This document shows positions 491 to 35,284 of a DNA stretch of 64,000 nt, one piece after another (the stretch's first letter is position 1; the number at the start of each line of letters is the position of its first letter). The translations under genes and the position numbers were made by a program. Source of the DNA: Lichenihabitans psoromatis (GTDB lineage: Bacteria > Pseudomonadota > Alphaproteobacteria > Rhizobiales > Beijerinckiaceae); NCBI RefSeq assembly GCF_004323635.1, contig NZ_CP036515.1:3349501-3413500 (forward strand), given 5' to 3'. Below the pieces are notes generated by a model. That model was not told the origin of the DNA, ran no database searches, and saw nothing but the letters and a program-made list of their open reading frames with translations.

Positions 491-508
491 TGAGTAGTTT
501 CCGAACCT
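491..508 (+). promoter_or_regulatory. Regulon motif copy 1 (TGAGTAGTTTCCGAACCT)
   Basis: First of nine copies of an 18-bp element with consensus TGAGTAGTTTCCGAnnCT. It lies about 133 bp upstream of the PRC-barrel start at 642 and in the same orientation. The spacing suits a site for an upstream-binding activator. The motif itself is read directly; the regulatory role is inferred from repetition and orientation. Confidence 0.6.
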
Positions 509-641
509 CGGCAAGAATGGCGTGCCGCTCTAGCCTCTCCCTTTGAAACTGCGTGCCTTTGTCGCGTGCCGATTCAACGGCACTCTTCACAATGCCGTCA
601 CCAAAACATTCAGCTCGCACCGAAGCGCAGAGGGTCAGACC

Positions 642-1400
642 ATGCTTTTGGCCGTATCAGCATTGAAGGGCTACGCCATCCTGGCGAGCGATGGCCGTAT
701 CGGCAGCGTCAGCGACGTTCTGTTCGATGACGAATCCTGGCGGCTTCGGTGGCTTGTCGTCGATACCGGAACCTGGCTGTCGGAACGCAAGGTCCTGGTT
801 CATCCGTCAGCCATCGGGGAGGTCGATCACGACCGGCAGGAATTGCCGATCCGGATGTCGAAGGCGCAGATCGAACGTAGTCCCGACATCAGTCGGGATC
901 GACCCGTCTCGCTGCAGATGCAGGGCCAGCTCTACGACTACTACGGATGGGATCCCGTCTGGGGCGGCAGCGGCTATTTCGGAGGCGGCTTGGGTCTGGT
1001 TGGCTCGTCGGGGTATTCAGGGATGGGAGCCACTCCGATGCCGAACGGCCATGGGTCTGACGACGGTGATCCGCATCTGCGCAGCACGACGGCCGTGACG
1101 GGTTCCCACCTCGAGGCGACCGACGGAGAAATCGGTCATGTCGAGAACATGCTGATCGATGATGCGGGCTGGGACGTTCGCTACCTCATTGTCGATACCA
1201 GGAACTGGTGGTTCGGACAGCACGTCCTGATCTCGCCCTACGCCGTCAAGAGCATCTCCTGGTCGGATCGAACGATCCAGCTCGACGTCACGCGCGCGTC
1301 GGTCAAGGCAAGCCCGGCGTGGGTTCCGACCGCCATGATCGACCAAGTGTATGAGAAAAGGCTTCACAACCACTACGGCTGGCAGGGCTACGGGTTTTAG
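642..1400 (+). CDS. Double PRC-barrel domain protein
   Basis: A 252-residue protein with two PRC-barrel repeats, roughly residues 5-80 and 140-220. Each has the pattern of a short strand, a D/E-G-x-I-G turn, and RWLVVDT or RYLIVDT. A Gly/Tyr-rich linker separates them. PRC-barrels are small beta-barrel modules found in photosynthetic reaction centre H subunits, RimM and many stress proteins of this order. No signal peptide is visible, so it is probably cytoplasmic. I chose the ATG at 642 over the upstream ATG at 543 because the domain begins there and a GAGGG-like ribosome site precedes it. A regulon motif lies upstream, and the LOV kinase follows after 12 bases, suggesting cotranscription. 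Confidence 0.85.
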   Translation: MLLAVSALKGYAILASDGRIGSVSDVLFDDESWRLRWLVVDTGTWLSERKVLVHPSAIGEVDHDRQELPIRMSKAQIERSPDISRDRPVSLQMQGQLYDYYGWDPVWGGSGYFGGGLGLVGSSGYSGMGATPMPNGHGSDDGDPHLRSTTAVTGSHLEATDGEIGHVENMLIDDAGWDVRYLIVDTRNWWFGQHVLISPYAVKSISWSDRTIQLDVTRASVKASPAWVPTAMIDQVYEKRLHNHYGWQGYGF

Positions 1401-1412
1401 GAAAGGTTCGCT

Positions 1413-3020
1413 TTGACAGCCGGCACGGACGGTTGGGCCTCCATGCTCAGCAACCAGAAACTGCGTGAGTTCGAAATCGAGGCGCTTGCCGGTCTCGACG
1501 TGTCGCTCGCGGCGGTGTCGGGCGTCGCGACCGTTGTGACCGACCCTCGTCGTCCCGACAATCCGGTCGTGTTTGCGAACCATGCTTTTTCCCAACTCAC
1601 GGGCTTTGCGCACGATGAGATCATCGGACGAAATTGCCGCTTCCTTCAAGCCCCCGAGGCTGACCCTGCAGCGATCCGCACGCTTCGAGAGGCCTTGGCC
1701 GCACGGCGTCCGATCGCGATCGAGATTCTCAATAAGAAGCGCGACGGCTCCTTGTTCTGGAACGCACTTTGCCTTTCACCCGTGTTCGACGTGACCGGCG
1801 ATCTTCGGCACTTCGTCGGCAATCTCGTCGACGTGAGCCGGCGGCGGACTGCCGAGCAAGCGCTGCATCAACTGCAAAAGATGGAAGCGATTGGACAGCT
1901 CACCGGCGGCGTCGCCCACGATTTCAACAATCTCCTGACCGTCATTATGGGCAGCGTCGAAGCCCTTCGGCGTCAAACTCTTACACAGGCGAATCGGAGC
2001 CGTTATATCGACGCGATCGGGACGACGGCCGGCCGCGCCGCGAAACTGACCGGCCAACTTCTGGCCTTCGCCCGCAAGCAGACCGTCGAGCCGACCGTCT
2101 TCGATACGTCTGATCAGGTTCGTCGCACGGTCGACATGCTGCAGACGATCGTCGGGTCGCGGATCGAGATCACCACCGAACTCTCCTCGAAGCGTTGCTT
2201 CATCAAGGGTGACATCAGCCAATTCGAAACGGCGCTGGTCAACATGGCCGTGAACGGGCGCGATGCGATGAACGGTCAGGGGCATCTCATCATCGCGGTC
2301 AAGCGGGTTACCGACGGTCCCGCGTGGCATGGACACGATGCGGTGTCCCGCGACGTCATCGCGGTGGCCGTGACCGACACAGGCGCCGGAATCCCGTCCG
2401 CCAGGCTCGAGCAGATTTTCGAGCCGCTCTACACGACCAAGGAGGCGGGCGCTGGTACCGGGCTGGGGCTTGCACAGGTACATGGTTTCGCTAAGCAGAC
2501 GGGCGGCGAGGTGCGCGTCGAGAGCGAACTCGGACGGGGCACAACGTTTACGCTTTTTCTGCCGTGTGCTGAAGCGGAGCCGATTGCCGTTCCGACGGAG
2601 CGAATTCAAGCAGCCATACATGAGCAGGGGCGACTTCTCATGGTCGAGCACCATGGTCAGATCGCTGAAATCACCTCTGAGATCCTGAGAGATCTCGGTT
2701 ACGAGGTCCGCTGCGTGACCAACGCCGCAGCGGCTTTGGCGGCGATCGAAGCCGACGACCAGGTTTTTGACCTTGTCTTCAGCGACGTTCAGATGCCCGG
2801 CCTCATGAGCGGTATCAATCTTGCGCATGAGCTGAATCGCCGATGGCCGGAGTTGCCGGTGCTCTTGACGACCGGCTACAGTAACGTTCTTGCGAGGGAC
2901 GAAGACGTGGTCGGTGATTTTCGAGTCCTGCGGAAGCCCTATTCCGCAGAGGCCCTTACGAGCCTCATCGAGGACATGATCCGCGTCGCGCGAGTCACGG
3001 AGGAGAGCAGACTGGCCTGA
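1413..3020 (+). CDS. LOV-domain hybrid sensor histidine kinase
   Basis: A 535-residue probable blue-light or redox sensor kinase. Residues about 25-145 form a LOV-type PAS domain carrying the flavin-adduct motif GRNCRFLQ, with the photoactive cysteine at residue 75. A HisKA domain follows, with the phospho-accepting His at about 169 in GGVAHDFNN. An HATPase domain comes next, with DTGAGIP and GTGLGLAQV. The C-terminal receiver has its phospho-acceptor Asp at about 458 in FSDVQMPG. No transmembrane segment is seen, so it is soluble. The start is a TTG at 1413 preceded by GAAAGG; an ATG at 1443 is an alternative. No separate cognate regulator is adjacent, so output may go through its own receiver and a phosphorelay. 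Confidence 0.9.
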   Translation: MTAGTDGWASMLSNQKLREFEIEALAGLDVSLAAVSGVATVVTDPRRPDNPVVFANHAFSQLTGFAHDEIIGRNCRFLQAPEADPAAIRTLREALAARRPIAIEILNKKRDGSLFWNALCLSPVFDVTGDLRHFVGNLVDVSRRRTAEQALHQLQKMEAIGQLTGGVAHDFNNLLTVIMGSVEALRRQTLTQANRSRYIDAIGTTAGRAAKLTGQLLAFARKQTVEPTVFDTSDQVRRTVDMLQTIVGSRIEITTELSSKRCFIKGDISQFETALVNMAVNGRDAMNGQGHLIIAVKRVTDGPAWHGHDAVSRDVIAVAVTDTGAGIPSARLEQIFEPLYTTKEAGAGTGLGLAQVHGFAKQTGGEVRVESELGRGTTFTLFLPCAEAEPIAVPTERIQAAIHEQGRLLMVEHHGQIAEITSEILRDLGYEVRCVTNAAAALAAIEADDQVFDLVFSDVQMPGLMSGINLAHELNRRWPELPVLLTTGYSNVLARDEDVVGDFRVLRKPYSAEALTSLIEDMIRVARVTEESRLA

Positions 3021-6164: not shown

Positions 6165-6182
6165 TAGGTAGTTTCCGAGGCT
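6165..6182 (+). promoter_or_regulatory. Regulon motif copy 2
   Basis: TAGGTAGTTTCCGAGGCT, differing from the consensus only near its 5' end. It lies about 224 bp upstream of the Cof phosphatase start at 6407 and in the same orientation. Confidence 0.55.
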
Positions 6183-6406
6183 AGGATCGCCGATCGGTTC
6201 TGTCCTTATCGCATCATGATCATGCATGAAGGGGTTCGGTTCAGCCGTTTACTGGGCTGCGTCACCGAAGCTACACGCATGCGATGAGGACGGCGAGCCG
6301 AAAAATCCGACGCTCTTTGCATGCTGCGTTCTTTAATCGGCCCGTTATTGGGCCGTCGCAAGGCTCAACCTGCTGCGGAGGCGTTTCCACGAAAGAACTA
6401 GAAGCC

Positions 6407-7231
6407 ATGACCCTCAAGAGCGACATCCGGCTCCTCCTTGCGGACGTCGACGGGACGTTATTGACCCGTGACAAGGTTTTAACCGAGCAGGCAGTGGCAG
6501 CGGTTCGCGCCTTGCGACAGGCCGGCATCGTCTTCGCGATCACCAGTGGCCGGCCGCCGCGCGGCATGCGCATGCTGATCGAGCCGCTCGGCCTCGATGA
6601 CGCCATCGCGGGCTTCAACGGCGGCGTCATCTTCAACCCCGACCTGTCCGTCATCGAGAGCCACCAACTCGACCCAGCGACGGCTCAACGGACCGTCGAA
6701 CTGATCCTGGGCCGCGGCCTCGACGTCTGGATTTACACGGCCGACGCTTGGTTGATCCGCGACCCCATGGCGGCGCACGTCACGCACGAGACCTCGAACG
6801 TCAGATTCGCGGCCACGGTCGTGCCATCCTTCACGCCCGCGCATCTACAGCGGGTCGTGAAGATCGTCGGCATTTCCGACGATCTCGCCCTGGTGGCGGC
6901 TTGCGAGACGGCGGCCCAGGACACGCTAGGCGCGACTGTGAGTGCCGAGCGCTCGCAGCGGTTCTATCTCGACGTGACCCACCCGCAGGCCAACAAGGGC
7001 GCGGTCGCGGTCACCTTGTCACGATTGCACGACATCCCGCTCGCGCAGATTGCCACGATCGGCGACATGCCGAACGACATCCCGATGTTCCGTAAGAGCG
7101 GTTTCTCGATCGCCATGGGAAACGCGAGCGACGAGGTGAAAGCGCAGGCGCATGCGGTGACCGTCAGCACCGAGCATGAAGGCTTTGCCAAGGCCGTGCG
7201 GCGCTTCATTCTGCAATCGGTCGGCGCTTGA
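6407..7231 (+). CDS. Cof-type HAD-IIB phosphatase
   Basis: A 274-residue haloacid-dehalogenase phosphatase of the Cof/IIB class, which removes phosphate from sugar phosphates or related small metabolites in the cytoplasm. Motif I is ADVDGTLL with catalytic Asp at 13 and 15. Motif II is AITSGRPP. The motif III lysine sits in QANKGAVAV, and motif IV is IGDMPNDIPMF. The cap insertion lies between motifs II and III. The ATG at 6407 is preferred to the in-frame ATG at 6284 because homology begins immediately after it. The substrate cannot be read from sequence. A regulon motif upstream ties it to the carbon/stress set. Confidence 0.88.
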   Translation: MTLKSDIRLLLADVDGTLLTRDKVLTEQAVAAVRALRQAGIVFAITSGRPPRGMRMLIEPLGLDDAIAGFNGGVIFNPDLSVIESHQLDPATAQRTVELILGRGLDVWIYTADAWLIRDPMAAHVTHETSNVRFAATVVPSFTPAHLQRVVKIVGISDDLALVAACETAAQDTLGATVSAERSQRFYLDVTHPQANKGAVAVTLSRLHDIPLAQIATIGDMPNDIPMFRKSGFSIAMGNASDEVKAQAHAVTVSTEHEGFAKAVRRFILQSVGA

Positions 7232-10949: not shown

Positions 10950-11624
10950 TCACCCGGTTTGGCGAAATAGGCCAAGCGCCGGCGGGCGATTGCAGGCCTC
11001 CGGGGTCATAATCAGCTGCGGGAACGCGGCGCCGTGGCCACAGATCGGTGCAGATCGATAATCCGGCACCTCGTCACTTGAGGTGAGCGCTTGACAATTG
11101 GCGGCGGCTACGTTCGTAAAAACGCCGACTGGCGCCCCCGCCCTGAGCCATAGATGTTCCAAGGCCACCGCGCAGCGTGGAAACTTTTGTGCATGGGTCA
11201 GGACGACAACATTGCCAATTGTCAGATTGAGGGCGACGAAACCCGCGAGGCTAAAATAGGGAAAGCGGGACGGCTGCACGTGAATGACAACTCGGGCTTC
11301 ACGACCGCTCCCCTTCTCGCGAGAGAGTGGCGCAAGGTGGCTCCGTGCGCAAAGACCAAGTGCACATTTGGCGTAGTAGTCCATGATGTCGACGCTGAGA
11401 TCGACTTCCGCATCCGATTGTTCGATACGCTGGCTCTTCTCGATCGACAACAAACGCACATGCGCGTGCTTGCGGCGATACAGGGCACCGGCAGCTGCCG
11501 CGGCCACGCGCCCTCTGTTTGAAACGCCCCTTGACCGCCACGACTCGAGACAGGTCTCGGCGGACGTCAACACGCCGGCAAAGTCTCCGGCTGGCCGTTC
11601 GGACTGCGTCACCAGGAAAGTCAT
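10950..11624 (-). pseudogene. Degenerate aldehyde dehydrogenase (succinate-semialdehyde type) fragment
   Basis: The frame carries recognisable but eroded aldehyde dehydrogenase N-domain sequence: VDLSVDIMDYYAKCA, then VQPSRFPYFSLAGFVALN (normally QPWNFPYYQ...PNL), NVVVLTHAQ, and LEHLWLRAGAPVGVFTN. The catalytic Cys and Glu regions are absent, since the frame ends after about half of the usual 455-480 residues. The N-terminus is also disturbed. It is clearly a relic of an NAD(P)-dependent succinate-semialdehyde-type dehydrogenase. It lies downstream of ackA on the same strand and may once have closed the same operon. Confidence 0.65.
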
Positions 11625-11733
11625 GGCACCTCAAGGAGCAGAGGGCGCGGGTGGAATTGCGAGCGCCTGCCTGGATCCAACATACGGTCCGGCGATCGCC
11701 GGCGGCAGGCTCGGAAACTACCCAGTCCATCGT

Positions 11734-12999
11734 TCAGGACATGCCGTTTTCACCCGTAGGGTTCAGAAGCAACCAGGTGTGGCGGGCAATCTGCTCGTCC
11801 TCGAGCGAGGGGAGAACCTGCACGCTGCAGTGCCCTTGCCGATCTCTGACTGGATCGGTTGTCGATCGGTTTTGGGCCGCCTTAAGGTCAACGCCGGCCC
11901 ACGCCAAGCCCCTACAGATCGCTGCGCGGACGGCGGCGTCGTTTTCCCCGATGCCACCGGTGAAGACGATCAGGTCTATCCCCTCGAGCGCGCCGATCAT
12001 AGCGGCGATCTGCTTGCGCACGGAATAGCAGAACATCCGGACGGCAAGGTCTGCGGTGGGCTTCGACGATGCGGCGTCGTGCAGCGTCCGCATGTCGCTC
12101 GCGAGCCCCGAGACGCCGAGGAGGCCGGACCGATGGTTGACCAGATCTTCGATCCTGGCCGCGTCGAAACCCTTCTCGCGCATGAGATAGACCAGAACGC
12201 CGGGGTCGAGGTCGCCGCTGCGCGTGCCCATCACGACGCCGCCGGTCGGGGTCAAGCCCATGCTGGTGTCGATCGACCGGCCGCTTTCGACCGCTGTGAC
12301 GCTCGCGCCGTTGCCCAGATGGGCGATGATGAGGCGCTTCGGCACCTCGGTTGAAAGCTGGTGCAGGATCGACTCGCAAGACAACCCATGGAAGCCGTAG
12401 CGTTGAATGCCCTCCGCCTGCAGGTCCCTAGCGATGGGCAGGACGCGGGCAATGTCGGGCAGGTCAGCGTGAAAGGCCGTATCGAAGCACGCAACCTGCG
12501 GGACGTCTGAGAACAGGTCCTGCGCGTAGCGGATCATCCCAAGAGCCGGCGGCATGTGGAGGGGCGCGAAGATCGTCGCGCTTTCGAGCTGTTGGATGAC
12601 TGTCGCGTCGATCAAACAATGCTGGCGAAGTTTCGGCCCTCCGTGCACGATGCGATGCCCGACCGCGATGGGCACCGGCCTGTTCGAATCAACCAGAAAT
12701 TTGCAAATTCGGAGCATGACGTCGCGATCGCCGGCAGCCGGCATATGCTCGTCGACCGTTTTTTCCTGGCCTTTTCGTTCGTGGCCGCGGAAGAGCCCAG
12801 TGCCGTCCTTGCTGCGTTCCACTTCGCCTGTGAGCAGAGTCTCGGTGCGTGGCGAGGTCACATCAAACAAGCCGAACTTCACAGACGAGGACCCGCTATT
12901 CACAGACAGAATGGGCCGCGTGGGACCGCGCTCGGTTCTCCTATGGCGAGGCTGGGGTCTTGCGCCGCCGGTATCTGACGCTTGCCGTTCGTCTCCCAT
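11734..12999 (-). CDS. ackA: Acetate kinase
   Basis: About 400 residues of acetate kinase, catalysing acetyl phosphate + ADP <-> acetate + ATP. Signatures are ILSVNSGSSSVKFGLF (nucleotide and Mg site), VGHRIVHGG, CFDTAFHADLP, QRYGFHGLS, AHLGNGASVTAV, MGTRSGDLDPGV and FTGGIGEN. All the main catalytic regions are present. The first ~28 residues are Arg/Pro-rich and unlike the family, so the true start may lie nearer the NSGSSS motif, though no closer ATG is available. It completes the pathway from phosphoketolase, which makes acetyl phosphate, to ATP. It is probably transcribed with the exonuclease and BON genes upstream, behind regulon motif copy 3. Confidence 0.92.
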   Translation of the reverse strand: MGDERQASDTGGARPQPRHRRTERGPTRPILSVNSGSSSVKFGLFDVTSPRTETLLTGEVERSKDGTGLFRGHERKGQEKTVDEHMPAAGDRDVMLRICKFLVDSNRPVPIAVGHRIVHGGPKLRQHCLIDATVIQQLESATIFAPLHMPPALGMIRYAQDLFSDVPQVACFDTAFHADLPDIARVLPIARDLQAEGIQRYGFHGLSCESILHQLSTEVPKRLIIAHLGNGASVTAVESGRSIDTSMGLTPTGGVVMGTRSGDLDPGVLVYLMREKGFDAARIEDLVNHRSGLLGVSGLASDMRTLHDAASSKPTADLAVRMFCYSVRKQIAAMIGALEGIDLIVFTGGIGENDAAVRAAICRGLAWAGVDLKAAQNRSTTDPVRDRQGHCSVQVLPSLEDEQIARHTWLLLNPTGENGMS

Positions 13000-13994: not shown

Positions 13995-14012
13995 AGGATC
14001 GGAAACTACTCA
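13995..14012 (-). promoter_or_regulatory. Regulon motif copy 3
   Basis: On the minus strand it reads TGAGTAGTTTCCGATCCT, matching the consensus. It points into the BON-exonuclease-ackA series. The annotated BON ATG at 13991 lies almost against it, so the real translation start is probably further downstream. Confidence 0.6.
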
Positions 14013-14147: not shown

Positions 14148-14165
14148 TGAGTACATTCCGAACCT
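14148..14165 (+). promoter_or_regulatory. Regulon motif copy 4 (variant)
   Basis: TGAGTACATTCCGAACCT, two differences from the consensus centre. It lies about 137 bp upstream of the DUF1269 gene and in the same orientation. With copy 3 it forms a divergent pair about 140 bp apart. Confidence 0.5.
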
Positions 14166-14806: not shown

Positions 14807-14824
14807 TGAGTATTTTCCGAGGCT
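14807..14824 (+). promoter_or_regulatory. Regulon motif copy 5
   Basis: TGAGTATTTTCCGAGGCT, about 72 bp upstream of the secreted PRC-barrel gene and in the same orientation. This is the shortest motif-to-start distance of the set, so the promoter must lie immediately downstream. Confidence 0.58.
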
Positions 14825-20316: not shown

Positions 20317-22683
20317 CTAGCTGACACCCGCCGACACAGGCCTGCAGCTTGCTTCGGTTTTTCCCTTCGATTGATGAATGCCTGTGACGCTTCGACTTTC
20401 AACGTCGATCTCGAGCGGAATGCCGCGTCGGAGCTCATAGGGTTCTCCACCGATGAAAATCGTCATCGGCTCTCCGGCCTCCAGCGTGGCTTCGATCAGG
20501 GTTTTGGCTTGTTCGACCCTGACCTTCAGCGTGCGGCGGCGCCACTGGACGCTGAAGGCAAGGCTGGTCCAGCCGCGGGGCAGTTTCGGGTCGAGCGCGA
20601 TGCCGTCGCGGCGGACCGACAAGCCAGCAAAGCCGAAGACGGCCATAATCCAAAGCCCTCCAAGCGCCGCAATGTGGACGCCGCCGTCGATTGCCACTTT
20701 AGTGTCCGAGAGGTCGATCGCGGCGGTTTCCAGGAAATAGCGGAGTGCCGCTTCGCTCGCGCCCAAGCGCGCGGCCACGAGGCCGTGCATGGCTTTGCTC
20801 AATGAGCTGCCATGGCTGCACCGGTGCTCATAGTAGCGGAAATTTGCCACCGCGCTCTCGCCTCTGAATTCCTCCGGCAGTAAGCCCAAAAGCGCGACGA
20901 CATCGGCCTGCTTGACCACCTGTGATCGCTGCGTCCGCTCCCGCCCCAGCACCACGTCCATCGGGACCGAGCGGCCCGCGTAGTCAGCAAGATCAATGTC
21001 CTCGAGCACAAAATAGCCCGCGAACTGCTCGAACAGACCGGTTTTCGGATCGAGCCCGGTCGCGATGGTGTCCGCCACGGCCCGCCACCGCTTAAGTTCG
21101 GCCTCGTCGAGCTTCAAGCGTTCGGCAAGGTTGGCCCAGCGATCTGGCCATCGCTTCCTCAACAATGCTGCGACATCGATCGCGCGGTGGATGTTCCACC
21201 GCGCCATGACGTTGGTGAAGGCGTTATCGTCGATATGCTCGTGATATTCGTCGGGTCCGATGACGCCACGGATATGGCATAGCCCGTCTGCTTCGGGCTG
21301 GGCACGGCTTGTCCAGAACCGCCCCGTTTCCAGGAGGATCTCGGCCCCGGCGTCGAGCAGAAAGTCCTCGTCCCCGGTGGCTTCCCAATAATGCCAGACC
21401 GCATAAGCCACGTCGGCGCTGATGTGCTGCTCCTGCGTGCCGCAGAGGATCTTGATAATCGTGCGATCCGGACCAACCGCCTGCGTCGGCGTCATCTCGG
21501 CCCCTGTGTCGGCGGATTCCCAGGCGTAGAAGGCGCCGCGCCAACCCATGCCGGCCGCCTTAGCCCGCGCGCCATCGAGGGTATGAAAACGGTACATCAA
21601 CAAGGCACGCGCCGCTTCGGGCCAGGTCAGGGTGTAAAAAGGCAGCAGGAAGATCTCGGTGTCCCAGAACACATGGCCACGATAATCGTCGCCGGTCAGC
21701 GCGCGTGCCCCGATCGAGACGTGCTCGTCGTCCGGATTGGCGGCGCTATTCAGGTGATACAGTGCAAAGCGGAGGACTTTCTGCGCCGTCGCATCACCTT
21801 CGACCGTGACGTCGCTGAACTGCCAGCGCGACGACCAGACCGCATCATGAGCCGCGAGCATGCCGCGCCAGCCGATCCGTTCTGCATTCCGGAGCTTGTC
21901 CCGGGCCGCATTTCCCGCATCGATGGTCTTGACGTCGCTGCGGACGATCGCGACCGACCGCTCGAAACACACGGTTTGGCCGGGCTGCGTGGTCCACGAC
22001 CAAGCCCATTTGAATTGACCGAGAGACGTGGGCTTAACATCACGGCCATCGATCTGGAGTAACGCTGCGGCCGCCATCCCGAGGCCCTTGCCGGAATGGG
22101 CGGTATGCCAAACTCCCAGTTCCTGATCCAAATGATCGCTCAGCAGCCCCAGGCCAACGCCTTCGCAAGAGGCCTCGACCGTGACATCGACTACACCGGT
22201 CTCAACCATCATGTGAATCAGTTGCAGCCCAAGCCCGCGCTCGCTCATCGAGACCAGACGTAAGGTCTTCAGATGAAGGTTGAGGTCCGCCGTCTTCAAT
22301 CGGCTGCTTTCACTAAGCAAGGCGCCTCGCCGCACGTCCAGCGTCATGCGATGCGACAGTACTTCGCCGGGGTGACGCACCATCGGCACGCCGTTGACCA
22401 GAAGACGCACCTGCAACCAATCCGGGGCTGGAACGAGCCCCGGTGTCGCGTGCTCGGTATCGGGAGTGTCGAACAGTCCGGCCACATAGGTCCGGGCCGG
22501 AGCGACCCAGCGGGTGCCACGGGTCGTCGCGCGTCCACCCCTGACGCCGAGAAAGCCGTTGCTGATCGCGAAACGCGACTCGACACTGGTTTCGCGAAGC
22601 GGATCGAAGCCATCCGCGATGAAGACCCAGGCAGGGTCGGCAGTCGGCGCGAGCAGTTGGTCCATGCTTTTCGGCCCGGTCAT
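20317..22683 (-). CDS. Glycoside hydrolase family 65 disaccharide phosphorylase
   Basis: A 788-residue GH65 enzyme, expected to split trehalose, maltose or kojibiose with phosphate into beta-glucose 1-phosphate and glucose. The N-terminal beta-sandwich begins around VESRFAISNGFLGVRGG. The barrel has DDYRGHVFWDTEIFLLPF, the general acid Glu at about 479 in GPDEYHEHIDDNAFTN, and KQADVVALL. A small C-terminal beta domain follows. Its ATG overlaps the stop of the beta-phosphoglucomutase-like gene (ATGA). This pairing is diagnostic for a phosphorylase because beta-glucose 1-phosphate needs that mutase. Which disaccharide is used cannot be decided. Confidence 0.9.
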   Translation of the reverse strand: MTGPKSMDQLLAPTADPAWVFIADGFDPLRETSVESRFAISNGFLGVRGGRATTRGTRWVAPARTYVAGLFDTPDTEHATPGLVPAPDWLQVRLLVNGVPMVRHPGEVLSHRMTLDVRRGALLSESSRLKTADLNLHLKTLRLVSMSERGLGLQLIHMMVETGVVDVTVEASCEGVGLGLLSDHLDQELGVWHTAHSGKGLGMAAAALLQIDGRDVKPTSLGQFKWAWSWTTQPGQTVCFERSVAIVRSDVKTIDAGNAARDKLRNAERIGWRGMLAAHDAVWSSRWQFSDVTVEGDATAQKVLRFALYHLNSAANPDDEHVSIGARALTGDDYRGHVFWDTEIFLLPFYTLTWPEAARALLMYRFHTLDGARAKAAGMGWRGAFYAWESADTGAEMTPTQAVGPDRTIIKILCGTQEQHISADVAYAVWHYWEATGDEDFLLDAGAEILLETGRFWTSRAQPEADGLCHIRGVIGPDEYHEHIDDNAFTNVMARWNIHRAIDVAALLRKRWPDRWANLAERLKLDEAELKRWRAVADTIATGLDPKTGLFEQFAGYFVLEDIDLADYAGRSVPMDVVLGRERTQRSQVVKQADVVALLGLLPEEFRGESAVANFRYYEHRCSHGSSLSKAMHGLVAARLGASEAALRYFLETAAIDLSDTKVAIDGGVHIAALGGLWIMAVFGFAGLSVRRDGIALDPKLPRGWTSLAFSVQWRRRTLKVRVEQAKTLIEATLEAGEPMTIFIGGEPYELRRGIPLEIDVESRSVTGIHQSKGKTEASCRPVSAGVS

Positions 22684-23420
22684 GCCGCCACCTGGCGAAG
22701 TCGGACGCCCGTCAAGGCGTCGATGGCAATGGCGTCGAGGCTCGTCACGACGAGATCGGCGCCAGCCGCCTGCAGCAGGGCTGCATCGTCCTGGCGGGCG
22801 ACGCCGAGCGCTCCCATGCCGCCGCTGCGGGCTGCCTCAATTCCGGCGGGAGCATCCTCGACGATGAGGCAGTTTGCTGGCGCGACGTGCAGGGCCGCCG
22901 CAGCCAGCAGGAAGATCTCCGGATCCGGTTTGCCCTTCTTGACATCGCGCCCGCAGACATTGGCATCGAACATATCAAGCAGGCTCTCGCCGGAAGGCAG
23001 ACGGATGGTCTTCATCATCCCGTTGGCGTTCTTCGAGGACGAGGCAACAGCGATGGGCCACCCCAGCGTACGCACCGACGCGACGAAACGGAGCGCATCG
23101 GGGAAGGCCTCGACCTCTCCGGCCGCGATCAAATCCTCCAGGCGTTTCTGCTTCCGCGCGGCGTAGACGGTAACTTTCCGCGCGGCATCGGGCACCCCGA
23201 GCGCCTCCAAGGCCGCGCGAGCCCCGGCGAGGCGCGGCTTGCCCGCGACCTCGGCCTGGTACAGGGCGGTCGTGAAACGGCCCGGATCGGCGAAGCCTTC
23301 CAGCGCCTCGCGCCAGGCTTGCTCATGCGGGGACGCCAGCAGGACGCCGTCGACATCGAAGATGACAGCCGTCAGCTTTGCGGACTGCGAGGGCGGATTC
23401 GGTGAAGCGCGATCGTTCAT
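22680..23420 (-). CDS. Beta-phosphoglucomutase-like HAD hydrolase
   Basis: A 246-residue HAD-superfamily protein. Motif I is VIFDVDGVL with the nucleophile and acid/base Asp pair. The helical cap (AWREALEGF, QKRLEDLI) follows. Motif II is VASSSKN, motif III lysine KKGKPDPEIF, and motif IV VEDAPAGIEAA. This arrangement is that of beta-phosphoglucomutases, which convert beta-glucose 1-phosphate to glucose 6-phosphate. The overlap with the GH65 gene strongly supports that job. I chose ATG 23420 (MNDRASP) because an AAGGTC element precedes it; ATG 23441 is possible. Confidence 0.85.
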   Translation of the reverse strand: MNDRASPNPPSQSAKLTAVIFDVDGVLLASPHEQAWREALEGFADPGRFTTALYQAEVAGKPRLAGARAALEALGVPDAARKVTVYAARKQKRLEDLIAAGEVEAFPDALRFVASVRTLGWPIAVASSSKNANGMMKTIRLPSGESLLDMFDANVCGRDVKKGKPDPEIFLLAAAALHVAPANCLIVEDAPAGIEAARSGGMGALGVARQDDAALLQAAGADLVVTSLDAIAIDALTGVRLRQVAA

Positions 23421-23451
23421 GGGATGGGACCTTGAGGGCATGGCGAGGCCG

Positions 23452-24321
23452 TCAGGCCGTCAGTTCGCGCCGGATGGCCTGGAGTTGCTGCTGGCGCTCG
23501 GCGCTGACCTTGGGATAGCTCATGTCGAGCCCCTCGAGCGTGTCGACCACGATCTGGGAGACAATCAGGCGGGCATTCTCCTTGTCGTCCGCCGGAACCA
23601 CATACCAAGGTGAATGCTCTGTGCTCGTTGCACTGAGGCACTGTTCATAGGCGGTTTGGTATTGCTTCCAGGACTTCCGTTCCTCGACGTCAGCGAGGCT
23701 GAATTTCCAGTTCTTGTCGGGCTCGTCGATCCGCGCCAGGAACCGCTTGCACTGTTCGTCCTTCGACAAATGCAGGAAAAACTTGACGATGCGGGTGCCG
23801 TTCGCGTGGAGGTGCTGCTCCAAATCGACGATCGAGCGATAGCGGTCGTGCCACATCTTGCCGTCGTGGCGGGGCGCGTCCGGGATGCCTTCGCTGTGAA
23901 GAATGTCGCGATGGACCCGGACGATCAAAACTTCCTCGTAATAGGAGCGGTTGAAGATGCCGATCCGTCCCCGTTCCGGCAGATCGCGGGTTGTGCGCCA
24001 GAGAAAGTCGTGTTCCAGTTCGGTCGCGCTCGGGTGCTTGAAGCTGAAGACCTGACAGCCCTGCGGATTGACGCCCGACATCACATGCCTGATCGCGCCA
24101 TCCTTGCCGGCCGCATCCATGGCCTGAAAAATCAGCAGCACGGCGTAGTGGTTAGACGCGTAGTGCATGTGCTGCAGCGCGCTTAATTTCTCGATATGTT
24201 CCGCTAGAAGCTGCTTGTACTGCTCGCTCGATTTGTAGACGGGATCGGTGACGGTCGGCCATTGCTTGAGATCGACGTTGTCGCCTTCACGCACCCGAAA
24301 GTGCTTTGTATGGATTTTCAT
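23452..24321 (-). CDS. ppk2: Polyphosphate kinase 2 family protein
   Basis: A 289-residue PPK2 enzyme, which moves phosphate from polyphosphate to nucleotides (ADP, AMP or GDP depending on class). Walker A is [14 protein letters not shown], and the lid and Walker B region is [14 protein letters not shown]. The conserved [19 protein letters not shown] and [13 protein letters not shown] are also present. Homology starts at [10 protein letters not shown], so the start is ATG 24321; the open frame upstream overlaps the ATPase gene and is not family-like. Its place after a P-type ATPase suggests it supplies nucleotide triphosphate from polyphosphate when ATP is short. Confidence 0.9.
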
Positions 24322-24403
24322 CGTCGTTCCTTCGGCTGTTTGTGGCACATCGTCCGTCGTCGCTGCGCGTGTCCGCGTCTGACGCGCCGACGGCTTCAGG
24401 CTC

Positions 24404-26956
24404 TCACGCGGCGGCTGCGGGCGTAACGACGGTTTTGCCGGCACCTTGTGGCTGACTGTCCTTCCTCGGCTTCTCGTCCTTCTTGACGTCATCGAGAATG
24501 CGATAGGTGAGCAGCTTTGCCCGATCGTTCACGAGCGCCCAGGCCAAGGCATAGCCCCAAACCAGCAGGGCCCAATACCAGGCCAGAGGAGTCACCAGGC
24601 CGAAGCCAAAGATCGCAATCAGGGTCGCGACTACCTGGGTTCCGAGCACCGCCATCCAGAGAATCTTGGCCGGGCGAATGGACCAGAACGGGCCGCGCGT
24701 CCGCGTCAGGAAGATGGTGAGATGTCCGGCGACCGACAGCTTCAGATACATGAGCGTCTGGATATGCGGCCGGTCGATGTGAAAGACGCGCTCGCCAAGG
24801 TAGAATAGGCCAAAGGCCGAGATCACGCCGAGCACGCCCAGGACCGTGGACACGCCGAGGACCACGCGCATGTTCCAGGCTTCGGGCTCGTCCCTGTACT
24901 GGACGTTGTCGTAGGCGATCGAGAGGATCGCTCCGTCGTTCAGCAGCGCCAGCATGACGATCATGACTGCCGTGAGCGGATAGAAGTTGAACACCAGGAT
25001 CGCGAGCGTCATGAAGAACAGCACCCGCAGCGTCTCGGCGATCCGGTAGATCGCATAGCTGTTCATGCGTTGGAAGATGCGGCGACTTTCCTTGATGGCG
25101 TCGATGATCACCGACAGGCCCGGGGTCAGCAGCACGATCGAGGCGGCCGCACGGGCCGCATCGGTGGCGCCCGAAACCGCGATCCCGCAGTCCGCCTTCT
25201 TCAGCGCGGGCGCGTCGTTGACGCCATCGCCCGTCATGCCGACGATGTGCCCGCGCTTCTGAAGCACGTCCACGATGTGGAACTTGTGCTCGGGAAACAC
25301 CTGGGCGAACCCGTCCGCGTCCTCGATTGATTTGGCGACCGCCAGGGTTTCGTCGCGCTTGGCGTCGCCGAGGCCGGCGCCGTCGAGGATATCGGCTCCC
25401 ATGTCCAGCGTCTTGGCGGTCTCACGGGCGATGGCAAGCGCGTCACCGGTCACCATCTTGATCTTCACGCCCATTTGGCGCGCGGTGGCGACCGTGGCTT
25501 TGGCGTCCTCGCGCGGGGGATCGAATAATGACAGGACGCCGACCAGCTGCCATTTGCCATCGCCATCCGCACGGGCCACGCCGAGCGCGCGGAAGCCGCG
25601 CGCCGCGAAATCGTCGACCGCCTTGTCGATGGCGGTCTTCACGGCCGCGGCATTGTCCGCCATCTTGAGGATGACCTGAGGCGCCCCCTTCGCCACCTTG
25701 AAGGTGCTGCCGTCCGCGGCCTTGACGGTCGCCTCGGTTCGCTTGTGCACGGCATCGAACGGCGTGAAATGCAGGACCTCATAGGCCTGCAACACTTTAG
25801 CATCCTTCAATCCGCCCAGGACCGCCAGATCGATGGTGTCGTCATTGTCGGCGCGCGAGGCGAGCGCGGCATTCAGGACCACCTGATCTGCCGTCATGTC
25901 GTCGACGGCAAAGGGGTCGCCCAGCGTCAGCTTGTTCTGTGTCAGCGTCCCGGTCTTGTCGGCGCAAAGCATGTCCACGCCAGCGAGTTCCTCGATGGCC
26001 ACAAGGCGGCTCACGATCGCCTGCTTCTTGGCGAGCAGGCGCGCCCCGACCGCCATAGTGACCGATAAGACGGTCGGCATCGCCACAGGAATGGCCGCGA
26101 CCGTCAGCACCAGGGCGAATTGCAGGGTCGAGAGGATCGGGTCGCCGCGGTAGAGCGCCACCGCGATGATGACCGCCACCAGGGCGACAGCCAGAACGAT
26201 GAGGTAGTTGCCGATTTTCAGCACGGCCTTCTGGAAATGGCTGACCGTGACGGCCGTCTCGACCAGTTCGGCGGTCTTGCCGAAATAGGTCTTCGTCCCC
26301 GTGGCATAGACCAGCGCGCCGATCTCGCCGCGCCGCAGGATAGAACCGGAAAACACCGCGTCGCCGGGTTTCCGCGTGGCGGGCAACGATTCTCCGGTCA
26401 GCGCCGACTGATCGACAGAAATCTCGTCGCCGTCCAACAACCGGGCGTCCGCCGGCACGATATCGCCCAGGCGTAATCGAATGACATCGCCCGGCACCAA
26501 CTCCCGCGCGGCCGGCGTCACCCATTTGCCATCCCGCTTGACCCTGGCTTTGATGGCGAGCCTCGCCTTCAGCGCCTCGATGGCATTGCCGGCTTGGCGT
26601 TCTTCCCAAAAACCCACGCAGGCATTGGCGACGAGCAACAAGAGGATGATGAAGAAATCCGGCCAGTGCCGAACGACTGCTGAAAGCACGACCGCAATTT
26701 CGATCATCCAGGGGATGGGACCCCAGAAATACGAGAGGAACTTCAGCAGTGGATTGACGGTCTTCTCGGCGATCTCGTTCGGCCCGTATTGGGTCAGCCG
26801 CTTGTCTGCCTCGGACTGCGTGAGCCCATCCGGCGACGAGCCGAGCCTGTTCTCGACCTCCGGCAGGGGAAGTGTCTTGAGATCGTCGGCGGCCTTAATG
26901 GTCGGATCCGATTTGGCATCGCGAGCCTTCGCCTGATCCTTGTCGAGCGTCGCCAT
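24404..26956 (-). CDS. Plasma-membrane-type P-type H+-ATPase
   Basis: An 850-residue type IIIA P-type ATPase, which pumps protons out of the cytoplasm at the cost of ATP. The cation-transporter N-domain (residues about 30-100) is followed by M1-M2. The actuator loop has TGES. The phosphorylation site is [13 protein letters not shown] with Asp 333. The hinge is [21 protein letters not shown]. About ten transmembrane helices are present, and a Lys/Glu/Asp-rich tail ends the protein. This is the proton-pump branch found in plants, fungi and some bacteria. It is the first gene of a series running through PPK2, the HAD mutase and GH65, downstream of regulon motif copy 7. The role is probably acid or energy-stress pH homeostasis. 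Confidence 0.92.
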
Positions 26957-27068: not shown

Positions 27069-27086
27069 AGGATCGGAAACTACTCA
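27069..27086 (-). promoter_or_regulatory. Regulon motif copy 7
   Basis: On the minus strand it reads TGAGTAGTTTCCGATCCT, identical to copy 3. It lies about 112 bp upstream of the proton ATPase and overlaps the TAG stop codon of the tpiA-like gene. The motif may therefore have arisen or been carried with that boundary. Confidence 0.6.
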
Positions 27087-27766
27087 GCGGCGTCGATTAT
27101 CGCGTTGAAATCCGCGGCATTCAGGCTGGCGCCGCCGACCTCGGGCAACGACAGGATCGCGCGTGCGTTGGACAGCTTGACCGATCCGCCATAGCGGATT
27201 CTGATCGCGTTCCCCGCGACCTCCCCGAACCGATCCGTGAGGCACTGGCGGATGTGGTCGTGCATCTCCACGATCTCACTCGCGGCCGGCATGTGACCGC
27301 TGCCGATCGCCCAGAGCGGCTCATAGGCGATCGCCAGGGTATCGGGTCCCGCCAAATCTTGCGGCACGCTGCCGGCGATCTGGCCGCCGCAGGTCGACAG
27401 GGCGAGACCGTCACGCCGCTGAGCTTCGCTCTCGCCGATACAGATGATGGCCACGAGCCCGGCGCGCCACGCCGCCGTCGCCTTGGTGGCCACGACGGCA
27501 TCGGTCTCCTGGTGATAGCGCCGCCGCTCCGAGTGGCCGACGATCACCGTAAAGGCGCCCGAATCCTGGGCGTCGCAATCTTCTCCGCCAATAGGGATAC
27601 GGCCTGAGGCGGTCTGCACGGCGCGTGAGATCAAGGTGGCGGGGACGCAGATCAGCGTGTCTGCTTTCGGCGGCGTCGCCGCGACCGACGTGGCCACGGC
27701 CTCGATCTCGGCAAGCTGAGCGGCCAGCCCGTGCATCTTCCAATTTCCCGCGATCAAGCACCGCAT
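27080..27766 (-). CDS. tpiA: Triosephosphate isomerase homologue with two internal deletions
   Basis: A 228-residue TPI; the family is about 250. It keeps the catalytic residues: Lys in IAGNWKMHG, His in VIVGHSERR, and Glu in AYEPLWAIGSG. Two segments are missing. After DAQDSGAFT the usual GDISAEML-type loop 3 (the dimer-interlocking loop) is absent. Near the C-terminus LPEVGGASL lacks the DGALV of the strand-8 phosphate-binding segment. Both joins are in frame and fall on likely short repeats. The enzyme is probably impaired or inactive unless it has a new role. It is downstream of the slipin gene (74-bp gap). The start is ATG 27766; the longer open frame upstream is an artefact of overlap. 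Confidence 0.75.
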   Translation of the reverse strand: MRCLIAGNWKMHGLAAQLAEIEAVATSVAATPPKADTLICVPATLISRAVQTASGRIPIGGEDCDAQDSGAFTVIVGHSERRRYHQETDAVVATKATAAWRAGLVAIICIGESEAQRRDGLALSTCGGQIAGSVPQDLAGPDTLAIAYEPLWAIGSGHMPAASEIVEMHDHIRQCLTDRFGEVAGNAIRIRYGGSVKLSNARAILSLPEVGGASLNAADFNAIIDAAE

Positions 27767-27840
27767 GGCATCCTCATCGTGGGTCGGTCTTGCTTGTGGG
27801 CCGGTCGATGCGGGTGCCCGAAAGCGCCCGCGGACTGACG

Positions 27841-28698
27841 CTATTGTCCGTGGTTTGCGTTGCCGTTGGTCAGGGCAAGTCCCGCCTCGCCGTTGGCCGG
27901 GAGAATCAGTGCACCGTTCGCGGTCGCCGGTTTGCCGGCTTTTGCCGCGATGTCGAGGAACGGCTTGATGATGTCGATGGGCATCGGGAACACCACGGTC
28001 GAGTTCTGTTCGGCGCCGATCTCCGTGAGCGTCTGCAGGTAGCGCAATTGCATGGCGGCTGGAACGCTCGACAGGATCGTGGCCGCATTGACGAGGGTTT
28101 GCGAAGCCTGGAACTCGGCTTCCGCATGGATGACCTTGGCGCGTCGGTCGCGCTCGGCCTCGGCCTGTTTGGCGATGGCGCGCACCATGTTGTCGGTCAG
28201 CTCGACCGTCCGGATCTCGACGTTGCTGACCTTGATGCCCCAGGCTTCCGTCTGGGTGTCCAGAATGCTTTGCACGTCCGTGCTCAGCTTCTTGCGCTCG
28301 GACAGCATTTCGTCGAGTTCGTGCTGCCCGAGCACGGCGCGCAGCGTGGTCTGGGCCAACATCGTGGTGGCGGACAGGTAGCGCTGGACCTGGATGATGG
28401 CGCGCTCGGGGTTGACGACATTGAAGTAGAGCACCGCATCGACCTTCATCGAGACGTTGTCGTGGGAGATCACATCCTGACTGGGAATCTCGACGACCTG
28501 AATGCGCAGGTCGACGCGGACCATTTCCTGGATGAAGGGGATGAGCAGGACGAGGCCCGGGCCCTTCACGCGATCGAACTTGCCAAGCGTAAACACCACG
28601 GCGCGTTCGTATTGTCGGAGAATCCTGATGCTCATGCCGAGCAAGATGAACGCCGCGAAGATCAGGATCGGGATCAGATAAAACGAGAGAAGACCCAT
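27841..28698 (-). CDS. Slipin / SPFH (band 7) membrane protein
   Basis: A 285-residue SPFH-domain protein with one N-terminal membrane helix (LLSFYLIPILIFAAFILLG). It then has the stomatin-like domain: RQYERAVVFTLGKF, PGLVLLIPF, VDLRIQVVEIPSQDVIS, ERAIIQVQRYL, and a long Ala/Glu helix with KQAEAERDRRAKVIHAEAE. Such proteins oligomerise on the membrane and are thought to organise or protect membrane microdomains, often with an NfeD or protease partner. No such partner is adjacent here. ATG 28698 has a better-placed AAGGA than ATG 28704. A regulon motif lies upstream and tpiA follows. Confidence 0.88.
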   Translation of the reverse strand: MGLLSFYLIPILIFAAFILLGMSIRILRQYERAVVFTLGKFDRVKGPGLVLLIPFIQEMVRVDLRIQVVEIPSQDVISHDNVSMKVDAVLYFNVVNPERAIIQVQRYLSATTMLAQTTLRAVLGQHELDEMLSERKKLSTDVQSILDTQTEAWGIKVSNVEIRTVELTDNMVRAIAKQAEAERDRRAKVIHAEAEFQASQTLVNAATILSSVPAAMQLRYLQTLTEIGAEQNSTVVFPMPIDIIKPFLDIAAKAGKPATANGALILPANGEAGLALTNGNANHGQ

Positions 28699-28853
28699 TG
28701 TCATCGTCCTTCAAAGGAGAAGCGAGTTCGCCTTCAGCGGAGTGAAGATTGACGAACAGATCGATCTGGCACCTTCAAGGTCTGCGGTGGCAGTTTGGGA
28801 GGTTGGCTTAGACGGTCTTCAAGACTTACATCATGGCAAGATGCTGCGGCGGT

Positions 28854-28871
28854 AGGGTCGGAAACTACTCA
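28854..28871 (-). promoter_or_regulatory. Regulon motif copy 8
   Basis: On the minus strand it reads TGAGTAGTTTCCGACCCT. It lies about 156 bp upstream of the slipin start and points toward it. The rest of the 28705-29096 intergenic region has no recognisable gene. Confidence 0.6.
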
Positions 28872-33542: not shown

Positions 33543-33715
33543 TCGGCCTACCGGATCATGTGGATTCGACCAGTTGGATGGCAGCCCAGCGGCCTTGTGC
33601 CGATTGAAAAGCCCGGCGGCCACCCTGCCAGCGCAAACGCTCGACCTCGGCTGTCATGTCGGCATGACCTCCCACACGCGTAGTTCAAGGCTGACCAGCC
33701 CTGATCGCTCTTGGC

Positions 33716-34924
33716 TCAAGCCGCGTGGAGGACTGGTTTCGACCTTGAGCGAGGAAACCAGCAGGTGAAGGTGGTTCCCTGTTCCTCGGACGAAGTGACA
33801 TGGATCTGCCCGCCGTGGGCTGCGACGATCTCCTGTGTGATGTAGAGGCCCAGCCCCAAATTCATCGACGCATGCTGACCGGTCGTCGCCGTTGCGCGGG
33901 TCAAAGGATCGAAGATCGAGCTTAACTTCTCGGCCGGGATCGGGACACCCCTGTTGTGGACCGTCAAGCTGACGGAATCCTTGTCGCTTGTGATACCAAC
34001 TTCAATCGAGGGATCTTGGAATCCATATTGGATGGCGTTGCCGAGCAGGTTCGAGAAGACCTGTCCGATGCGGGCTTTGTCCCATTCACCCGTCATGTCA
34101 GCGGGAGATACGTCGAGCCTGATGTCCCGCGACGGATGCCCGGCCCTTATCTCGTCGACCATCTGATGGGCGACGTAGCCGAAATCCATTGCGGATCGGA
34201 CGATCGGGAGCGAAGCGCCAAACCTCGCGCGCGTGACATCCGTGAGAGTGTCGATCAGTCCGCCGATCCGGCCGGCACAGTCGGACATGGTTCCCACGAG
34301 CATCGACTGGCGTTCGTTGAGCGGTCCGATGCGCGGCATGAGTTCGGCCGACAACATTATAGCCTGCACCGGACTGCGAAGGTCATGCCCTAGGATGCCG
34401 ATGAACATGTCTTTCGACCTCAGCACCTCGTCAGTGTAGTATGTCGTCGACTCCATCAGTTCCTGGTCGATGGCCTCGTTGAACCTCGTCAGGTCCTCGA
34501 AGTCCTTCCCGTCCATGAGCGGTTTCGATCTCCTCCAGAGCTTGATCACGCTTGCCCGCAAAGCCCGGTACTCGGAGGTCATCTGACCGATGTTGAAGCC
34601 ACCCGAAAGGCGCAACGCCGCGTGGGTTTCCGCGGCCGTTCTGGTTGGGTCTCGGGCCTTCTTTCCCCTGGACTTGATCGCTTCTTCCTTGGGCGTCTGG
34701 TCCGACTGGATGTCGGCGACGATGAATTTCAGAATGAGATGGATGTGGTCCCGCAAGGCCAAGGGGGTCATGCCGTCGGACGTCGGCGTCAAGGTTCGTG
34801 CAAAGTTCTCCCATTCGACGACGATCGGCTTGATGTTCTCGGACATGAAGGTCGAAAGGCGTCTGCGACCCTCACTCTCACCCGAGTGCGGCGAAGTCGA
34901 GATGGTCTCTGCCTTCGGGTTCAT
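33716..34924 (-). CDS. Soluble sensor histidine kinase
   Basis: A 402-residue kinase. The N-terminal helical domain (about 20-170, with VVEWENFARTL and GFNIGQMTSEYRALR) resembles RsbR-type or globin-like sensor helices. HisKA follows with ILGHDLRSPVQAI, then HATPase with NLLGNAIQYG, RGVPIP and LGLGLYITQEIVAAHGG. No transmembrane segment is seen. The kinase core is complete but has no receiver. It ends convergently with the large fusion protein gene and may phosphorylate one of its receivers. The signal is unknown. Confidence 0.87.
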   Translation of the reverse strand: MNPKAETISTSPHSGESEGRRRLSTFMSENIKPIVVEWENFARTLTPTSDGMTPLALRDHIHLILKFIVADIQSDQTPKEEAIKSRGKKARDPTRTAAETHAALRLSGGFNIGQMTSEYRALRASVIKLWRRSKPLMDGKDFEDLTRFNEAIDQELMESTTYYTDEVLRSKDMFIGILGHDLRSPVQAIMLSAELMPRIGPLNERQSMLVGTMSDCAGRIGGLIDTLTDVTRARFGASLPIVRSAMDFGYVAHQMVDEIRAGHPSRDIRLDVSPADMTGEWDKARIGQVFSNLLGNAIQYGFQDPSIEVGITSDKDSVSLTVHNRGVPIPAEKLSSIFDPLTRATATTGQHASMNLGLGLYITQEIVAAHGGQIHVTSSEEQGTTFTCWFPRSRSKPVLHAA

Positions 34925-35266
34925 GGAACTCCTGTCAAATCCGTTACTAATCTATAATAAGATTTTTTGTCCCCTTGCGAAAATGCATACTGATTATGCG
35001 CATACGGCTGCGGCATGCGCCAGCCTCGTGCCTCGTTCTGTCAGCCCGACAGGCATTAATCGTTTTCTACGGCAATTCGAATTTAGGACGGCGCCGTTTC
35101 TATCGAACGACGCGGTAAATGCTGGGGCGCCGAGATCTTGGGCATGTCCGTGATTTCCGGCGTAAGTACACGGCGACAGGCGACAAGCAGGGTCGCAGCC
35201 CTGTTGCTACCGAAAAACTCCCGGCCACCGTGGTGAATGCCCTGATTGTCGTTCATTTGCACAGTC
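34925..35266. other. Divergent intergenic region, no gene seen
   Basis: An AT-rich segment at about 34940-35000 just upstream of the kinase start (TAATCTATAATAAGATTTTTT) is the likely kinase promoter. The rest carries no recognisable coding sequence. Confidence 0.4.
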
Positions 35267-35284
35267 TGAGTATTTTCCGATCCT
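35267..35284 (+). promoter_or_regulatory. Regulon motif copy 9
   Basis: TGAGTATTTTCCGATCCT, about 118 bp upstream of the LysR-type regulator and in the same orientation. It is the right-most copy found; none was seen from 36 to 64 kb. Confidence 0.58.

Follow-up and report, generated by a model that had tools for sequence, protein, structure and literature searches.

A 64,000-nucleotide stretch of the Lichenihabitans psoromatis genome (contig NZ_CP036515.1; C1:3349501-3413500), referred to below as the window, carries in its first 35 kb a gene island with repeated copies of an 18-bp motif, TGAGTAGTTTCCGANNCT. We consider it highly probable that this island is a self-contained, FixJ-like stress and fermentation regulon, read by a 1,495-amino-acid (aa) regulator that is encoded within it and would act as an activator. 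A preliminary description of the window had proposed a new regulon read by a FixJ-type receiver and helix-turn-helix (HTH) unit fused to a kinase, and the comparative evidence presented here favors this proposal. No description of the motif or of the regulator was found in the literature searched, part of which was available as excerpts and which did not extend to subscription papers.

Motif copies and promoter architecture

The window contains ten matches to the motif, each with at most two mismatches, in a search that allowed up to three (Table 1); 100 shuffles of the window gave an expectation of 0.28 ± 0.53 matches at up to three mismatches. Nine of the ten lie where the preliminary description had placed them, and the tenth, 11707(-) (TGGGTAGTTTCCGAGCCT, one mismatch), has ackA on one side and a truncated gene for aldehyde dehydrogenase on the other. 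A 21-column matrix built solely from 112 sites of other genomes gave these ten sites 23–33 bits and added an eleventh, 20192(-), at 19.3 bits, with the next match in the window at 11.6 and the best match in the reversed window at 9.5. The earlier count was thus incomplete, and its statement that no copy occurs between 36 and 64 kb holds at up to three mismatches.

All eleven sites are oriented toward the following gene, as had been claimed for the nine. The distance from site to start is 133, 101 and 82 bp for sites 1–3 (the third being 11707(-)) and 137, 72, 225, 112, 149 and 118 bp for sites 5–10, the last value assuming that the LysR-type gene starts at the ATG at 35403. The eleventh site is 89 bp ahead of the ATG of a 104-aa open reading frame (ORF), which has no relative among the loci fetched from other genomes. 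Site 4, 13995(-), had been described as close to an uncertain start: the TTG opening the BON ORF is only 3 bp away, so the true start has to be located deeper inside the ORF.

Exactly ten copies with at most two mismatches are present in the whole genome (4.84 Mb), and every one is in the window, within 35 kb, while the reversed motif, used as a control, gave two matches at this threshold. The exact word GTAGTTTCCGA occurs seven times in the genome, always in the island (reversed control, three). At up to three mismatches there are 15 motif matches versus 23 for the reversed control, so that the five matches beyond the island can be put down to background; a wider regulon was considered and dropped for the same reason.

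At six of the ten sites in the window a TANNNT sequence begins 23 or 24 bp past the motif end (at site 1, CTAGCCT with TA at +23). Among the 112 distinct sites of other genomes this sequence was found 27 times at +23, 21 times at +24 and five times at +22, with no more than four occurrences at any other offset; offsets +22 to +24 account for 52 of the 112 sites, compared with a mean of 1.9 and a maximum of 6 for other three-offset windows. The box is separated from the motif by 21–23 bp. Only the motif, the positions directly bordering it and this -10 box carry more than almost no column information, and no -35 consensus is visible among the 112 foreign sites. With the -10 box placed at -12 to -7, the motif spans approximately -52 to -35, which is where class II activators bind. 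As far as sequence alone can tell, the sites thus combine the features of class II activated sigma-70 promoters, namely a site touching the -35 position, a fixed -10 box and a poor -35 element, and the motif is best read as the predicted site of an activator in that interval.

A site overlapping the -35 position could also be occupied by a repressor, and the regulator might bind there mainly to repress the island promoters until released by phosphorylation. We regard this as improbable, given that the lack of a -35 consensus at 112 sites is expected for activator-dependent promoters and that FixJ is an activator. An even smaller probability attaches to the motif being part of promoters that an alternative sigma factor recognizes, EcfG of the general stress response being one example. 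Such an element would account for the fixed distance to a -10-like box, and two of 82 proteins encoded after sites elsewhere match PhyR_sigma2, but 18 conserved base pairs ending 21–23 bp ahead of the -10 box exceed both the length and the distance that a sigma -35 element could have, the sites track the regulator clade (see below), and the EcfG promoter consensus GGAAC-N16/17-CGTT has no occurrence in the window versus 1.16 expected by chance. Least credible is the explanation that the copies, as a dispersed repeat or as remnants of copied DNA, owe their conservation to descent instead of function: homologous genes are indeed common to the islands, but beyond the motif and its edges the information almost vanishes save at the -10 box, many different genes carry the motif, and it is present in a betaproteobacterium.

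Most sites also lie ahead of a gene with the same orientation. Of 122 sites, 98 are intergenic (13.5% of random positions) and 91 are followed within 400 bp by a start in the same orientation (6% of random positions are both intergenic and so placed), these counts resting on a crude custom gene caller. With the deposited gene tables of four of the ten plasmid loci described below, all 24 sites fall between genes, with 21 of them at most 300 bp from a co-oriented start (random, 5.8%).

The regulator and its co-occurrence with the sites

The regulator combines HisKA, HATPase_c, REC and HTH in one ORF, which is the arrangement of a hybrid two-component system; the open frame has at least 1,458 aa in 11 of 16 matches from a sample of the order and in 13 of 25 from a sample of the class, the remainder being shorter. 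The presumed phosphoacceptor of its REC and GerE HTH unit, D57 of the REC2 fragment, is invariant in 16 of 16 alignment rows (L064 of genome G230 and L071 of G197, which contain stop codons, were left aside). REC2-HTH, which comprises regulator residues 1275-1495, matches the FixJ structure PDB 5xso with an E-value of 7e-40. The FixJ-type unit fused to a kinase, noted earlier in the middle of the island, is thus present in the 1,495-aa chain, though its score against the FixJ equivalog NCBIfam NF006900 is 228.9 bits, below the curated cut-off of 255.

Several known systems resemble it in part. The kinase-REC1 part is close to the NahK/ErcS hybrid kinases, although at 373.6 bits it stays below the NF041832 cut-off of 400, and to our knowledge NahK has no HTH. 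In the DosR/DevR dormancy regulon a LuxR-type response regulator drives low-oxygen stress and energy genes; this is a likeness of working only and no membership, as DosR/DevR has separate kinases, is actinobacterial and uses another site. The rhizobial FixLJ system shares the receiver with GerE-type HTH, and the core of the island site, GTAGTTTCC, has nine of the ten bases of the FixJ consensus GTAGTTTCCC obtained by systematic evolution of ligands by exponential enrichment (SELEX), as given in PMC4999443; the previously suggested resemblance to FixJ-type sites thus holds at the level of sequence. The same paper reports FixJ footprints on fixK at -69/-44 and -57/-31. Unlike FixJ, the island regulator falls below the NCBI cut-off and is fused to a kinase behind CheB-CheR and a second receiver, there is no separate FixL haem-PAS kinase partner, the kinase being in the same chain, and the 3' half of the site is CGAnnCT and not CCTTA. 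Control of fixK or nifA is not seen either, since no copy with at most two mismatches exists outside the island and neither gene follows a site in the window. The regulator resembles FixJ in its working, yet it is not FixJ. Like the hybrid two-component systems of the Bacteroides type (PMC11253607), it unites a sensor, a kinase, a receiver and a DNA-binding part within a single polypeptide, but it differs from them in its LuxR-type HTH and CheB/CheR domains and in the absence of polysaccharide-utilisation genes.

A family of single-domain receivers of about 120 aa was observed near the regulator at five loci, each after a motif, two of these (in Phyllobacterium and Sphingomonas) having three mismatches. 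As a guess, they might have a feedback or phosphate-sink role. A FixT-like iron-sulfur feedback was considered and rejected, as they carry 0–3 cysteines versus four in the FixT type (PMC7078487).

Scanning related genomes, proposed in the preliminary description together with the whole-genome scan, revealed sites that are mostly upstream of and co-oriented with genes and that occur with the regulator clade, plasmids included. Among 60 relatives, 18 have a motif match at two mismatches or fewer, mostly one or two. Regulator matches of at least 54% identity were found in G000, G005, G014 (two copies), G039 and G036. The first three have clusters of 10, 14 and 8 sites, respectively; G039 has a single site 2.6 kb from the regulator, and in G036 the regulator is a response regulator standing on its own, about 190 aa long, with a site approximately 80 bp past the matched stretch. 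Relatives with FixJ-like matches only (about 40%) have no site cluster. A protein search listed 120 of the 8,000 scored candidates that shared most words.

In the order sample (297 genomes), 20 genomes have a site with at most one mismatch, 15 have the regulator at E≤1e-50 and 13 have both; the corresponding numbers for the class sample (385 genomes) are 22, 20 and 13. Sites occur in 7 of 282 and 9 of 365 genomes without the regulator, and Fisher's test with the own genome excluded gives p = 5.8e-15 (order) and 7.0e-13 (class), both inflated by relatedness. The reversed control matches 16 and 15 genomes, respectively: 1/15 and 1/20 of the regulator genomes and 15/282 and 14/365 of the others. 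As the control shows no link with the regulator, the lone sites in genomes without it are background and the association is specific to the true motif.

Starting from the motif, genomes with two or more sites at no more than one mismatch contain the regulator at E≤1e-50 in nine of ten cases in the order and in eight of ten in the class, while two or more reversed-control matches are present in three genomes and one genome, respectively. The order exception, G312, has a 59%-identical fragment including the HTH at a contig edge. In the class, G586 encodes a small protein matching only the HTH of the clade (68%) on the contig that carries its three sites (Table 1). A PRC-like gene (recognized by eye; no NCBIfam match) lies beside this lone HTH with a site 93 bp upstream, and neither CheB, CheR nor receiver of the regulator was found within the surrounding 19 kb; the only other matches, with 26–30% identity, are in a region for a hybrid kinase at a distance of about 7 kb. 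G586 thus appears close to a natural domain-deletion test in which the HTH and the sites were retained.

A regulator-only scan of GTDB genomes yielded at least 80 loci. Among those listed, 22 loci have a regulator of at least 49% identity, and 17 of them contain a total of 31 sites (no reversed-control match in 379 kb), whereas those below 49% (38–47% relatives) have two sites in 58 loci (control 1, 974 kb).

The 49% cut was set after the list had been seen, and for this reason a tree with 85 rows was built: 49 of the at least 80 genome loci, 10 plasmid loci, 15 regulators from the sample genomes, 10 FixJ-like controls and the window. Site labels were counts at up to two mismatches in the fetched flanks; for the window and the 15 sample-genome regulators they were taken from the other scans, partly as whole-genome counts. 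One supported clade (100/96, bootstrap not settled) contains 50 regulators, 44 of them with sites, as opposed to 1 of 35 rows outside it. Besides the choice of the cut, several observations weigh against reading the sites as operators of this regulator. Six of the 50 clade members have no site nearby. Two of the 15 regulator genomes in the order and seven of the 20 in the class have no site with at most one mismatch, G666 has two sites and no clade member, and the related genomes are not independent. Finally, in the fetched loci sites accompany only 3/6 homologs of xfp, 1/3 of the Cof phosphatase, 2/10 of the H+-ATPase and 1/8 of ackA, which in the window is not the first gene of its operon.

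The sites could in principle be read by a different host regulator, a true FixJ or another LuxR-type protein, with the island regulator as a bystander. The motif does resemble the FixJ SELEX consensus, and LuxR-type regulators are common, those matching more weakly than E≤1e-8 lying beyond the search. At this threshold the island regulator is the sole match in its genome to cover both receiver and HTH; the other 21 matches cover the receiver part and none extends past residue 173 of 221. Together with the nearly site-free 38–47% relatives and the lone HTH of G586, which is still accompanied by sites, this makes a different reader quite unlikely, and we retain the island regulator as the predicted one.

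Putative target genes and plasmid loci

Other homologs of the island genes in the fetched loci are accompanied by sites more often: general-stress proteins in 7/7 cases, slipin in 4/5, the second PRC protein in 2/2 and the first in 4/8. For the window genes that lack a site (glycogen debranching enzyme, sugar transporter), 0/5 homologs have one. The count excludes LysR, and BON and the Na/H exchanger have no homologs in the fetched loci. The unevenness of these counts indicates a stable operator with a changing set of genes.

In other genomes, 96 proteins encoded after sites reach 100 aa or more, and Pfam matches were tallied for 82 of them; the 14 omitted are mostly duplicates, a 2,901-aa protein and genes far from a site, plus L082:12209-12559. 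Besides the PhyR_sigma2 matches mentioned above, the tally includes nine PRC, three each of BON, YflT, XFP and ferritin-like proteins, and two each of 6-phosphogluconate dehydrogenase and oleate hydratase (MCRA). The gene after site 5 had been called DUF1269; its ORF has no Pfam match, but the protein clusters with homologs encoded after sites elsewhere, where the YflT matches occur. At one locus a PhyR/EcfG-type sigma factor gene follows a motif, divergent from the regulator (L082:5450-6088, -), which may connect the regulon with the general stress response.

In the plasmid collection, a relative is present in 24 records. Ten of these, one per carrier and with identities of 51–68%, were sampled: Phyllobacterium, Polymorphobacter, Methylocystis, the betaproteobacterium Caballeronia, Lichenicola, Asticcacaulis, Methylocapsa, Sphingomonas, Acidiphilium cryptum and Agrobacterium (five Shinella records and one Roseateles record, at 47–49%, stayed outside the sample). 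All ten loci have sites, 36 with two mismatches or fewer versus one control match. Plasmid genes after sites include adhP-xfp-ackA, gnd, gluconokinase, SHOCT-tpiA and an alternate F1F0 ATPase. In Caballeronia there are six sites, five of them perfect and all with TANNNT at +23 to +25, and five of the six precede genes for a general stress protein, Usp, a hypothetical protein, BON and a HAD phosphatase. The metabolic theme of the genes after sites, in the window and elsewhere, may be a supply of ATP from sugar in cells unable to respire, by way of phosphoketolase-acetate kinase, phosphorolysis and polyphosphate.

Transposase genes are present near several plasmid loci. The idea that the island is a compositional outlier was rejected: its GC content is 60–64% over 0–36 kb versus 58–64% in the rest of the window, and the case for mobility therefore rests on the plasmids and the transposase genes. 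As regulator, sites and genes occur together on chromosomes and plasmids of many Alphaproteobacteria and of a betaproteobacterium, the block seems to bring its own wiring along when it travels and may have been transferred as a unit. We see about even chances that it is a plug-in regulon, in which the regulator, an 18-bp operator private to it and anaerobic-energy and stress genes in varying combination would move together on plasmids and islands between orders and even classes, host regulators would not be needed and the operator alone would recruit genes.

Proposed mechanism and features of the window

In the mechanism that we propose, the PAS_10 and CheB/CheR-like domains of the regulator chain would be its sensing parts, the kinase part would autophosphorylate and pass the phosphate to the C-terminal FixJ-type receiver REC2, and the LuxR-type HTH would then bind TGAGTAGTTTCCGANNCT at about -43.5. 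The bound regulator would recruit sigma-70 RNA polymerase to a promoter without a -35 element in a class II-like activation; as a -10 box is present and a -35 element is not recognisable, polymerase would depend on the bound regulator. Computation shows the sites with their positions, the -10 spacing, the co-occurrence and the location on plasmids, whereas binding, activation and phosphorelay are our inference. The targets (phosphoketolase-acetate kinase, aldolase/tpiA, PPK2, the proton pump, GH65/beta-PGM, PRC, BON, slipin and general-stress proteins) would yield ATP without respiration or protect the cell. The likeliest signal might be low oxygen or energy shortage, a guess to which we give somewhat less than even confidence.

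Table 1. Motif sites and associated genes in the window, with related genes at loci of other genomes (L numbers).
Feature	Position	Strand	Remarks
Site 1	491..508	+	0 mismatches, 29.0 bits; ahead of PRC-barrel gene and LOV hybrid kinase
PRC-barrel protein	642..1400	+	PF05239
LOV(PAS)-HisKA-HATPase-REC hybrid kinase	1413..3020	+	domain matches
Site 2	6165..6182	+	2 mismatches, 23.3 bits; ahead of Cof-type phosphatase
Cof/HAD (Hydrolase_3) phosphatase	6284..7231	+	domain match
Aldehyde dehydrogenase fragment	10950..11624	-	covers profile positions 30-201 of 461; after site 3
Site 3	11707..11724	-	1 mismatch, 31.1 bits; between ackA and truncated aldehyde dehydrogenase
Acetate kinase (ackA)	11734..12999	-	PF00871; third gene after site 4
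BON-domain protein	13488..13991	-	domain match; true start uncertain, within ORF
Site 4	13995..14012	-	0 mismatches, 33.1 bits; ahead of BON, 144-aa ORF, ackA
Site 5	14148..14165	+	2 mismatches, 25.3 bits; ahead of YflT/DUF1269-like gene
161-aa general-stress-like protein	14303..14788	+	enclosing ORF without Pfam match
Site 6	14807..14824	+	1 mismatch, 30.4 bits; ahead of PRC-barrel protein
Second PRC-barrel protein	14897..15772	+	signal-like N terminus judged by eye
Site 7	15878..15895	+	0 mismatches, 32.8 bits; ahead of xfp, aldolase
Phosphoketolase (xfp)	16121..18550	+	domain match
Class I fructose-bisphosphate aldolase	18532..19578	+	domain match
104-aa ORF	19788-20102	-	after site 11
Site 11 (matrix-derived)	20192..20209	-	19.3 bits; ahead of 104-aa ORF
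Proton-efflux P-type ATPase, PPK2, beta-phosphoglucomutase-like HAD, GH65 enzyme	20317..26956	-	likely operon; ATPase score above the TIGR01647 cut-off
Site 8	27069..27086	-	0 mismatches, 31.6 bits; ahead of H+-ATPase, PPK2, beta-PGM-like, GH65
Slipin (Band_7) and triose-phosphate isomerase (tpiA)	27080..28704	-	domain matches
Site 9	28854..28871	-	0 mismatches, 32.5 bits; ahead of slipin, tpiA; within divergent gap before regulator
Regulator, CheB-CheR-PAS-HisKA-HATPase-REC1-REC2-GerE HTH, 1,495 aa	29055..33542	+	REC2-HTH is the predicted motif reader
HisKA-HATPase kinase adjoining regulator	33716..34924	-	no motif site detected ahead of gene
Site 10	35267..35284	+	1 mismatch, 31.3 bits; ahead of LysR-type gene
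LysR-type regulator	35403..36344	+	ORF opens at 35310; start checked
Single-domain receivers, other genomes	L186:15229-15591, L187:15537-15911, L194:15727-16086, L060:7891-8253, L175:7274-7636	all -
Lone-HTH gene of G586	C83, L204:1480-2094 (also L210)	-	receiver-less, between three motif copies

The hybrid kinase after site 1 contains GRNCRFLQ, spotted by eye, which we take to be the blue-light LOV motif; because of its position, light sensing may fall under control of the regulon. A short gene annotated as 'aldehyde dehydrogenase family' is found in the Caballeronia island too (L185:34489-34863). To the right of the island, about 2 kb from the last target, genes resembling those for phage capsid, prohead protease and terminase (window 38222-42833, -) indicate a prophage or its remnant, followed by genes for a catalase and a heavy-metal P-type ATPase (window 45722-46762 and 51360-53525). 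To the left there are a transposase gene, approximately 6 kb outside the window and presumably of the IS3 type judging by its domains, and a gene for a YHS-domain P-type ATPase (L195:7083-7955 and 9158-11542).

If the proposed regulon is real, annotations that go no further than 'chemotaxis protein CheB' or 'CheB/CheR fusion' would conceal transcription factors whose operator can be read, and their targets could be listed in any genome from sequence. The narrow and portable pair of promoter and regulator would be of use for engineering. The island would also offer a testable case of a regulatory circuit traveling with its genes, and thus of how acquired DNA gets wired into the cell.

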